A stretch of 64,000 nucleotides of DNA from Bacillota bacterium. GTDB taxonomy: Bacteria; Bacillota; Sulfobacillia; JAJZYS01; JAJYTV01. This document shows positions 30,381 through 36,355 of the stretch, one piece after another (position 1 is the first letter of the stretch; each line of letters starts with the position of its first letter). The stretch lies in NCBI GenBank assembly GCA_021793215.1, contig JAJYTE010000001.1:144329-208328 (forward strand), in the 5' to 3' direction. A program made the position numbers and the translations under genes. Below the pieces are notes generated by a model. That model was not told the DNA's origin, made no database searches, and saw only the letters and a list, made by a program, of their open reading frames with translations.

Positions 30381-32477
30381 TTGGCGCAAGGGCGGAGCAT
30401 GGCGCGCCGCTTCGCCGGTCGCTGGCCGGAGGCGTCGGCCACGCTGGCTTTGGCCGCCCTCTTGGCACACGCGGACGTTCGGGCCCTGGGGCTGCCGCTC
30501 GCGCTGGCGGTTGCCGGAGGCGCGGCCGAGCTGCCCCTCGGCGCCCTCGGCGCGCTCGGCGCCGCCGTGGGGGCGGTCTGGATCGGCGACCCCCTTGCGG
30601 GCCTCCTGTGCCTGCTCGCGCCGATCGGTGGGGCGCTGGGCCGTCGTCGGCTCGGGCTGCGCAGGGGGCTTTCGGGCGCGGTCTGGGCGGGCGTGCTCTC
30701 GGCGGTCGCGGCCTACTTCGCATCCGGTGGCGCCGCCCGCTTCCTTCTCGTGCCGGCGACCGTCGCGCTCGCCTGCGCCGTGGCCGCAGCCGGCAGCGCG
30801 CTGCTTCACGGGCCGTCCCCGGAGCGGCGGCGGCTCGGGGCCGCCGCGCTGGCCATCTGGCTCGTGCTGGGACTCGGGGGCATCACCGCCTTCGGCGCAG
30901 CGCTGGCTCCGCTTGCCGCCCTCCTGTTGACGCTCGCGGCCGTGCGCCTGCGCACGTCCGCCGTGCCGTTCGCAGTCATCCTGGGCGCCGCACTGGCCGT
31001 GACCGGCCTCGCGACGCCGGATTTCGCGCTGGGGATCGCGACGGGCGCAGCCCTCGCGACCTACGCGCGCAGGTACGGTGGGTTCCAGGCCTGGCTCGGA
31101 CTCGCCGCCGGCGTCCTGCTGCCGCTCGCCAACGCGCAAGGAAGCTTCCTCGAATCGGTCGTCGCAACGCTCCTCCTGCTCCTCGGGGTGAGCCTCTCAC
31201 TCCCCGAGCCTTCCTACCGCGCGCTGCGCGCCTTCTTCGCCCGGCCCGCGGAGTCCGGCAAGGAGGCGCCGTCCCCGCCGGACCGACTCACGGAGGCGCT
31301 CCTCCAGGTCGACACGCTGGTGCGTGAACTGAGCCGGGAGCAGGCGCCTGTCATCGCGGAGGAGGCGGACGTGGCGCATTTCCTCAGCGGTGTGCGCGAC
31401 CGGGTCTGCTCCGGCTGCCCGCACGAGTCGATCTGCTGGGAGTCTGGGTTCTACACGACCTACACCGGCGTCAAGGAACTGATGCTGCGGACCGACGGTC
31501 CGCCGCCGGCCGCCCGCGACCTGCCTGCGGACCTTCGCAAGCGCTGTCCCAGGCCGGACCAGGTCGCGACGGCCGTGGTGCTCGCCGGCGACCAACTGCG
31601 CGCCGAGGCGAACGTACGCCGGCTGCTGCACGCGGAGCGCACCCTGACGCGCGACACGTTGATGGGGGTGCGCCAGATGCTCGGATGGGCCCTCAGCGAA
31701 CCCGCCCCGTCGACCGTCCGCAGGCTGAGCTTCAGCTCTGGGCTCGCGCGGGTGGCGAAGCAGAGCGGCTACGTCTCGGGTGACAGCTACGTTGTACGAG
31801 AACTCGCGGACGGGCGCCTGCTTCTGGGGCTCAGCGACGGCATGGGGGCGGGCGCCGACGCGGCGGAGCAGAGCGCGTCGGCGCTCGACGTGGTCGAAGG
31901 CTTCCTCGCCGCGGGCATGGACCCCGTCGTCGCGCTGCGCGCCGCGAATGCAGCGCGCAGGGGGGCGGGGGGCGAGACGTTCGCCACGCTCGACCTCGCG
32001 CTCGCCGACCTCACCGCATCCGAGTTCGTCTCGCTGAAGATCGGCGCGCCGGAAACCTACCTGCTGCGGGACGGCGCGGTGCAGGTGCTGCGCGGCGACG
32101 CCCTGCCGCTGGGGATCGTCCCGCAGGCGCAGGCCGCGGTGCAGAACCTGCCCCTGTCGCCGGGCGACGTGCTGGTGCAGGTCTCGGACGGCGTGCTCGA
32201 GGGTCCACCCGGCCCGCGCGGGCAGTGGCTCGTCGCACTGCTCGAGGCACTGCAGGGGGCGGATCCGCAGTACCTCGCCGAGGCGATCCTCGATGCATCG
32301 CTCGGTCGGCGCCGCCACGCGCGCGACGACGTGACCGTACTGGTCACGTCGTTCCACCTCGCGGCGCGGGAACCGGAGATCCGCGCATGGGTCCGGAGAG
32401 GCCATCCGGAATTGGGTATCGTTGGTGGAAGGCCCGGGCAGACTGCGCAGGGAAGGAGGCGACGCTCGCGTGGGTGA
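30381..32477 (+). CDS. spoIIE: Stage II sporulation protein E (SpoIIE) phosphatase
   Basis: About 10 N-terminal TM helices, Cys-rich linker VCSGCPHESICW, PP2C domain SGDSYVVRELADGRLLLGLSDGMGAGADAAEQS; followed by kinase-like gene and tilS. Confidence 0.9.
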   Translation: MAQGRSMARRFAGRWPEASATLALAALLAHADVRALGLPLALAVAGGAAELPLGALGALGAAVGAVWIGDPLAGLLCLLAPIGGALGRRRLGLRRGLSGAVWAGVLSAVAAYFASGGAARFLLVPATVALACAVAAAGSALLHGPSPERRRLGAAALAIWLVLGLGGITAFGAALAPLAALLLTLAAVRLRTSAVPFAVILGAALAVTGLATPDFALGIATGAALATYARRYGGFQAWLGLAAGVLLPLANAQGSFLESVVATLLLLLGVSLSLPEPSYRALRAFFARPAESGKEAPSPPDRLTEALLQVDTLVRELSREQAPVIAEEADVAHFLSGVRDRVCSGCPHESICWESGFYTTYTGVKELMLRTDGPPPAARDLPADLRKRCPRPDQVATAVVLAGDQLRAEANVRRLLHAERTLTRDTLMGVRQMLGWALSEPAPSTVRRLSFSSGLARVAKQSGYVSGDSYVVRELADGRLLLGLSDGMGAGADAAEQSASALDVVEGFLAAGMDPVVALRAANAARRGAGGETFATLDLALADLTASEFVSLKIGAPETYLLRDGAVQVLRGDALPLGIVPQAQAAVQNLPLSPGDVLVQVSDGVLEGPPGPRGQWLVALLEALQGADPQYLAEAILDASLGRRRHARDDVTVLVTSFHLAAREPEIRAWVRRGHPELGIVGGRPGQTAQGRRRRSRG

Positions 32478-33153
32478 GGCTGTCGACCGGCCGGTGATCT
32501 GGGGTCAGTCGCATCGCTACCAACTCGGCCCGGCCGTTGGTGAGAGGACCTTCTGGGCCAGCGACGAGACGGGACGAGCCTGGGCGGTGGAGATCGGACG
32601 CGCGGAGCTGTTGCACGCCCGTGAGGAGCTCCTGCGGCAACTGCCGCAGGGGACGTTGCCGCGGATGCGGGAGATCGGGGACATGCCAGGCGGTCGGCTG
32701 GCGTACGTCGTCTCGGAGTGGGTGTCCGGCTACACGCTCGGGAACCTCCTGCACGAGGGGCGCCGCATGGCGCCCGCGGAAATCCGACGGCTCGGCTACG
32801 ACATCTCGCAGCAGCTCGAGTTGGCGCTCGGGCACGGCGCGGAGGTCGTTGCGGTGCGGCCCACCGACATCCTCTACGCGACGGCGGAGCGCCGCTGGCG
32901 TCTGCTGAGCCCGGGCGAGTGGCGCCGATACGAGGGCGGACCCGTCGACCTCGCGTGGCTCGCGACCGCGATGCTCGGCGCAGGTGGGAGCGTACCCGGT
33001 GAGGAGCCGCCGTGGGCGCCGGAGGACCCCAAGCTCTGGCAGTTGCTGCAGGAGACGATGCGCAGCAAGTGGCAGGTGCGGCCCTGGGGTCGGCGGTTGC
33101 GCCCGCTGCACGGGATCATGCGCGCACTGGGCGGCGGCATGCAGCAGCCGTGA
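32470..33153 (+). CDS. Ser/Thr kinase-fold protein, predicted pseudokinase (yabT position)
   Basis: GTG start overlapping the spoIIE stop; YQLGPAVGERTFWASDETGRAWAVEIG N-lobe; SEWVSGYTLGNLL hinge; degenerate catalytic loop VVAVRPTDILY and LLSPGEW. Confidence 0.65.
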   Translation: MGEAVDRPVIWGQSHRYQLGPAVGERTFWASDETGRAWAVEIGRAELLHAREELLRQLPQGTLPRMREIGDMPGGRLAYVVSEWVSGYTLGNLLHEGRRMAPAEIRRLGYDISQQLELALGHGAEVVAVRPTDILYATAERRWRLLSPGEWRRYEGGPVDLAWLATAMLGAGGSVPGEEPPWAPEDPKLWQLLQETMRSKWQVRPWGRRLRPLHGIMRALGGGMQQP

Positions 33154-33196: not shown

Positions 33197-34495
33197 ATGG
33201 ACGAGCTTCTCTCCGACCTCCAGGTTGCGGCGGATCGCATCGGACTTCGAGGCGCCGTCTGCGTCGTGGCCGTCTCGGGCGGTCCGGACTCAGTCGCGCT
33301 CTGGCATCTCCTGTGCCAAGTGGCACCGAGCCTGCGCATGAGACTGCACATGTGTCACGTCGACCATGGCTGGCGTCCCTCGGACGCCGCGCGGGAGGCC
33401 GCGATCTGCCAGAAACTCGCGGACGCCGCGGGCGCGGGCCTGAGCGTTGTGCACCTGCCTGCGCCCGTGCGGCACAGCGAGGACGCGGCGCGCGCGCGGC
33501 GCCTCTCGGTCTTGGAGCGCGTCGCGCGCGGCGTCGGCGCGAGTGCTGTCGCGCTTGCGCACCATCAGGACGACCAGGCCGAGACCGTCTTGATGCAGCT
33601 CGTGCGCGGCTCGGCGCGGGCTGCGGGCATGCCGACCTGGCGGGAGCCCTACTGGCGGCCGCTGCTATCGGTGGGGAAACAGCGTCTGCTGGAGGTCTGC
33701 AGCGCGGCGGAACTCGACTACAGCCTAGACCCCACGAACTTCGGCGACGGGAACCTCCGCGCGCGGCTGCGCGCTGGAGTGCTCCCTCTGCTGCGCCGGG
33801 AGAACCCCCGCGTCGCGGCCGCGCTCTCACGCAACGCCGCGCTGCGGGCGGAAGACGACGAGTTCCTGCGGGATGGGGCCGAGGCGCTGCTCGCGGCTCT
33901 TCCCCGCCTGCCCCGGGGCGTTGACGTTCGGCCGCTGCGCGCAGCGCCTGGACCGCTCGCGCGACGCTGCCTGCGGGAGCTTCTGGCTTCACGCGGCGGG
34001 GAGCTGCCGCTCGAGCGGACCGCGGAGGCTCTCGCTGCGCTGCGCGAGGATCGGCGGATGAGCCCAGCGCGCGGCCTCTACCTCGAGGACGGCGCGCTCT
34101 GGTGGGACGGGCCGCGCCCGACCGCCCTTTCGCTCGTCGACGGCATGCGAGGGCGCTTTGGCGACCTCTGGGTCGGCATCGGCGACCCGCCGCCGGGCGC
34201 GGTCGTGGCACCAATCCCACAGGGAAGGGCGGCGGTGCGCGGGCGGCGCGCGGGCGACCGACTCGCGACAGCTGCCGGTACGCGCAAACTGCAGGATCTT
34301 TTGGTCGACGCGAAGGTGCCCCGCCGTGTGCGCGATCTTATTCCCATCCTCATCATCGAAGGCGTACCATTCTGGGTGCCGGGGCAGCCTTGGCAGCCCC
34401 GGGCAACCGTCCGGCACGGGGCTGCGGACGAGTCCAGGACCGCTTGGGCGGCACCTCGTGAAGTTGTTGCCTCTCTTTGGAGTGTGCTAAAATGA
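33197..34495 (+). CDS. tilS: tRNA(Ile)-lysidine synthetase
   Basis: VCVVAVSGGPDSVALWHLL P-loop; HVDHGWR; ALAHHQDDQAETVLMQLVRGS. Confidence 0.93.
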   Translation: MDELLSDLQVAADRIGLRGAVCVVAVSGGPDSVALWHLLCQVAPSLRMRLHMCHVDHGWRPSDAAREAAICQKLADAAGAGLSVVHLPAPVRHSEDAARARRLSVLERVARGVGASAVALAHHQDDQAETVLMQLVRGSARAAGMPTWREPYWRPLLSVGKQRLLEVCSAAELDYSLDPTNFGDGNLRARLRAGVLPLLRRENPRVAAALSRNAALRAEDDEFLRDGAEALLAALPRLPRGVDVRPLRAAPGPLARRCLRELLASRGGELPLERTAEALAALREDRRMSPARGLYLEDGALWWDGPRPTALSLVDGMRGRFGDLWVGIGDPPPGAVVAPIPQGRAAVRGRRAGDRLATAAGTRKLQDLLVDAKVPRRVRDLIPILIIEGVPFWVPGQPWQPRATVRHGAADESRTAWAAPREVVASLWSVLK

Positions 34496-34546
34496 ACCGA
34501 TTTGCACGGCTCCGCTCGTGCGCCCGCGAAAGGAGGCCGGACCGCG

Positions 34547-36355
<1,809 letters not shown>

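Follow-up and report, generated by a model that had tools for sequence, protein, structure and literature searches.

The phosphatase SpoIIE turns on the first sigma factor that is specific to the forespore, and in the window (the whole stretch of 64,000 nucleotides analysed here) one further gene separates its coding sequence from tilS, in the slot that holds the kinase gene yabT in Bacillus. What does this slot encode, and what could its product do beside SpoIIE? The preliminary description read it as a pseudokinase, translationally coupled to spoIIE, that might be a scaffold or regulator acting with SpoIIE. The gene order, on one strand, is spoIIE (30381–32477, +; Pfam PF07228 at 5e-31 and PF19732 at 1.1e-13), the slot gene of 227 amino acids (32470–33153, +; assigned from sequence, orthologues, fold and selection), tilS (33197–34495, +; PF01171 at 5.4e-38 and PF11734) and, 3' of tilS, an ftsH-like gene (34502–36355, +). 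The coordinates given for the slot ORF proved correct: its GTG start (32470–32472) lies 10 bases past the Shine–Dalgarno sequence AAGGAGG (32453–32459, +; seen in the sequence and in aligned start regions), which is located within the 3' end of spoIIE, and the two genes overlap by 8 nt (32470–32477). The overlap falls within the codons for the N-terminal 12 residues MGEAVDRPVIWG (32470–32505, +), which are identical in 9/9 orthologues. In the sister genus the start codon is ATG and the overlap with spoIIE is about 28 nt, with an identical AGGAGG, a motif kept in all nine genomes of the family. The conserved overlap and Shine–Dalgarno sequence thus support translational coupling to spoIIE. The orthologues are 88–92% identical within the genus, where pS is about 0.5 and pN 0.05–0.07, and about 61% identical to those of the sister genus; judged by this conservation, the slot ORF is a real gene rather than a frame open by chance in DNA of high GC content.

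Fifteen genomes of the order were examined, nine of which, in two genera, make up the family of the window's genome (family f1); all nine contain the pseudokinase between spoIIE and tilS. In another family of the order, one genome (G014) carries a diverged version there, and another genome of the order (G001) has tilS directly after spoIIE with no gene between. The slot pseudokinase is absent from those genomes of the order that lack spoIIE, namely three members of family f3 and G010, which is incomplete. For the rest of the class, regions from about 70 genera were inspected and both spoIIE and tilS were found in 64; in 63 of these 64 genera the gap between the two genes is at most 693 nt and contains no kinase-like ORF, and in one (L087) spoIIE and tilS are not adjacent. 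Small, putatively coding ORFs of about 117–145 codons with a C-terminal hydrophobic helix and no Pfam match occur between spoIIE and tilS in other genera of the class (L100:2245-2595, L101:1882-2313 on the minus strand, L104:1129-1542 and L073:1293-1646). Of 40 loci sampled across the phylum, 10 place a kinase-like gene in the slot; these are the six Bacilli-like genomes without exception, which also have yabS, and four others. The sampled Bacilli show the order spoIIE–yabS–yabT–tilS, and a few Clostridia also have yabT in the slot. This survey, together with the side of the kinase tree on which the protein falls (see below; the tree is not decisive), supports the designation as a yabT slot, with the refinement that yabS is absent from the locus in family f1. 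In one further genome (L231, G483) a YabT-like gene beside yabS and tilS is apparently split in two frames by an internal stop; one piece matches at E 3e-26, and the break could reflect a pseudogene or a mistake in the assembly.

A single-sequence Pfam search with the slot protein gave no match, and phmmer found PknB at E 0.008. A profile built from ten relatives (A1) reached PknB at 2e-5 in a search of the PDB, and its non-self matches in 399 genomes of the phylum lay nearly all in long ORFs about as large as PrkC-type kinases; the matches to these kinases span residues 14–138, with E values down to 8e-11. AlphaFold with only close relatives in the alignment gave a confident N-lobe alone. With YabT, PrkC and actinomycete relatives added, it returned a complete bilobal kinase (pLDDT 83.9, pTM 0.80), a model that rests on an alignment containing real kinases. 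Foldseek matches to this model were kinases throughout, with PknB first (E 4e-11) and TM scores up to 0.72, and included the pseudokinases TRIB1 and TRIB2. Profiles and predicted structure thus support a Hanks-type kinase fold for the slot protein. The N-lobe (residues 16–83; 32515–32718, +) comprises beta1–beta3, alphaC and beta4–beta5 with a shortened glycine loop, according to DSSP on the model and the alignments.

The motifs quoted in the preliminary description (WAVEIG with E41, VVAVRPTDILY with A128 and D133, and LLSPGEW with S147) do occupy the catalytic positions, which we assigned by alignment to 28 YabT kinases. The VAIK lysine position is Glu41 (32590–32592, +), the catalytic loop corresponds to A128–D133 (32851–32868, +), with HRD Asp replaced by Ala and the catalytic Asn by Asp, and the DFG position, placed by model and alignments, is S147-P148-G149 (32908–32916, +). 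None of the nine orthologues has any of the four catalytic residues: the VAIK Lys is Glu, HRD Asp is Ala, Ser or Gly, Asn is Asp or Glu, and DFG Asp is Ser or Ala. In the YabT kinases used for comparison the VAIK Lys, HRD Asp and DFG Asp are present in 28/28 and the catalytic Asn in 27/28. The diverged protein of G014 has Arg, Arg, Ser and Gly at the four positions. In addition, the glycine loop is shortened in family f1 and, in both the model and a global profile alignment, little of the activation segment remains from the DFG position to alphaF (residues 162–171). A change of the VAIK Lys (K55D) served to make a kinase-negative form of B. subtilis YabT (PMC3708118), and, as read from its residues, the slot protein is catalytically dead. 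A swapped Lys–Glu salt bridge between E41 and R51 was considered and dropped, because R51 lies one residue off the alphaC Glu in the ungapped alignment; the equivalent of E52 is kept in the window's genus and is Ala in the other genus of the family. With the fold predicted, the profiles matching real kinases and the catalytic positions lost in every orthologue, the term pseudokinase is well founded.

Selection on the gene is strong. Within the window's genus, dN/dS (Nei–Gojobori) is 0.06–0.09 for the slot pseudokinase, compared to 0.14–0.26 for spoIIE and 0.26–0.32 for tilS, at similar dS. Across the nine copies of the family, invariant positions amount to 12/12 in the N-terminus and 44/71 (62%) in the N-lobe, and to only 9/34 (26%) in the catalytic-loop region, the least conserved part of the protein. 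A working kinase would show the opposite pattern, which argues that the gene is functional and that its function is not catalysis. The slot pseudokinase probably acts by binding other proteins rather than by phosphorylating them.

Taken together, we give a probability of roughly 0.6 to the reading that the slot encodes a catalytically inactive Hanks-type Ser/Thr kinase domain from the YabT lineage, whose translation is coupled to that of SpoIIE and which purifying selection preserves for a task other than catalysis. As such it would be an adaptor that binds SpoIIE or the clients of SpoIIE; both the adaptor role and the partnership with SpoIIE are inferred. In B. subtilis, YabT and SpoIIE are encoded in one operon and treated as a cognate kinase/phosphatase pair: about half of the 32 partners of YabT are common to SpoIIE, and SpoIIE removes the phosphates that YabT adds to RecA, RacA and YabT itself (PMC4205851). 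The site of YabT action is the asymmetric septum, and DNA activates the kinase (PMC3708118, PMC6333020). A scaffold or regulator working with SpoIIE, as proposed in the preliminary description, fits both the purifying selection and this published partnership (PMC4205851), and it is a good hypothesis. A partner that is devoid of catalysis, yet under tighter constraint than SpoIIE, speaks for a role other than catalysis at the sporulation switch. RecA Ser2 is a target of YabT in B. subtilis. In this order RecA (L264 and relatives) appears to start with MDR (MDRER...), without Ser2, at a TTG start inferred from the ribosome-binding site; the missing serine was not taken as evidence, because it is also missing in relatives without the slot pseudokinase.

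The partner of a functional pseudokinase could also be a protein other than SpoIIE, for instance a septal, DNA-segregation or PrkC-pathway protein, with the position beside spoIIE serving only the timing of expression. Operon position yields co-expression without contact, the shared half of the YabT partners leaves the remainder to YabT without SpoIIE (PMC4205851), and the genome encodes a PASTA-type kinase with intact motifs (L001) that could phosphorylate the slot pseudokinase, as PknB does MviN. However, the overlap and the coupling with spoIIE are conserved in both genera of the family, and the genomes of the order that lack spoIIE do not carry the pseudokinase either. We regard a partner other than SpoIIE as rather unlikely.

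The descent of the gene was addressed with a tree of 45 kinase domains from PrkC, actinomycete pseudokinases, YabT, family f1, G014 and G209. It split at 100/100 into PrkC with the actinomycete pseudokinases on one side and YabT with family f1, G014 and G209 on the other, and family f1 grouped with G014 at 94/97. When family f1 is moved out of the YabT side, the tree loses 9.5 log units (AU p 0.07); uniting it with the actinomycete set loses 13.2 (AU p 0.08), and the AU test rejects neither placement. With G014 left out, the position of family f1 is without support. G014 itself scores 30 bits against a YabT profile versus 8.9 against PrkC and, like YabT, it carries a membrane helix at its C-terminus and has a G-to-Y spacing of 6 residues. 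The highest 19-residue hydropathy is 1.95 in G014, its membrane helix, versus 1.04 in the family f1 protein. The YabT family model NF058632 (cut-off 280 bits) gave no match to the family f1 protein at E up to 10, versus 490 bits for a B. subtilis-like protein (L134). Descent of the slot pseudokinase from YabT is supported but not proven. Alternatively, a copy of a PrkC-type kinase or an MviN-like pseudokinase might have entered the same slot. The protein of family f1 on its own scores about 6–17 bits against YabT, slightly better against PrkC (12–20 bits) and best against actinomycete MviN-like pseudokinases (40 bits), the AU values of 0.07–0.08 are consistent with such an origin, and the slot is empty in most genera of the class. 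The kinship suggested by the 40-bit match was not accepted, as the actinomycete set had been retrieved with the slot pseudokinase as query and its score is hence biased; the branch of family f1 and G014 lies in the YabT half of the tree (100/100), and the G014 protein prefers YabT to PrkC by a wide margin. An origin outside YabT seems rather improbable.

At least two other YabT lineages lack the catalytic Asp. In G209 (L143:4553-5407), the protein encoded between spoIIE and tilS has Asn for HRD Asp and Ser for the catalytic Asn, and retains the VAIK Lys, DFG Asp and C-terminal membrane helix. The protein of G195 (L232:1495-2385) lacks both HRD Asp and DFG Asp; its gene is directly upstream of tilS and downstream of an apparent carB-like ORF, and spoIIE is on another contig. 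A single shared loss of catalysis for family f1, G014 and G209 was weakly rejected (p 0.04). Within the YabT lineage there may have been at least three losses of catalysis (in this order, G209 and G195), with the gene retained next to spoIIE and/or tilS. We suggest only tentatively that the ancestral and indispensable role of the slot could be non-catalytic and coupled to SpoIIE, with phosphorylation optional.

Enzymes of other chemistry on a kinase fold, such as SelO or SidJ, are known among bacterial pseudokinases (PMC12599244), but these retain nucleotide- and metal-binding residues, whereas in family f1 the catalytic-loop region is the least conserved, the HRD Asp position drifts among Ala, Ser and Gly, and both the glycine loop and the activation segment are shortened; an activity of this kind is very unlikely for the slot protein. 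That the gene is a decaying yabT remnant, as the loss of every catalytic motif and of the membrane tail might suggest, can practically be dismissed in view of a dN/dS lower than that of both neighbours, a frame open in nine genomes and a conserved start and Shine–Dalgarno sequence.

Compared with known systems, the family f1 protein resembles YabT/PrkT of Bacillus (NCBIfam NF058632; PDB 6G4J) in its place between spoIIE and tilS, in a Hanks-type fold without extracellular domain and in the side of the tree to which the best tree assigns it. It differs from YabT/PrkT in lacking all four catalytic residues and the greater part of the activation segment, in having neither a C-terminal membrane helix nor the long basic juxtamembrane DNA-binding segment, and in a locus without yabS; its diverged relative in G014 has the membrane helix and N-terminal spacing of YabT. 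YabT is not mentioned in a review of pseudokinases (PMC12599244), and none of the listed papers that name both YabT and pseudokinases appears to describe a YabT pseudokinase. The MviN/MurJ-linked actinobacterial pseudokinases (ActPs3, PDB 3UQC) are, like the family f1 protein, dead in all three motifs, and actinobacterial loci, MviN/ActPs3-like by sequence appearance, have the best single-sequence similarity to it outside the order (tblastn 3e-7). However, MviN/ActPs3 pseudokinases have a fused membrane segment and extracellular domain and group with PrkC in the tree, whereas the slot protein is a kinase domain alone, in which sequence, model and hydropathy indicate neither a transmembrane segment nor an extracellular domain. 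In the actinomycete proteins L007–L029 a dead kinase domain at the N-terminus is combined with a membrane helix and an extracellular domain at the C-terminus; they resemble MviN-type (ActPs3) pseudokinases encoded by a gene of their own. Lastly, EssB/YukC shares with family f1 the degraded three motifs and glycine loop and the cut activation loop (PMC12599244), but it is a monotopic membrane protein of type VII secretion, a context and a membrane segment that the slot protein does not have. The role of EssB/YukC is that of a scaffold, as is also known for MviN (PMC12599244).
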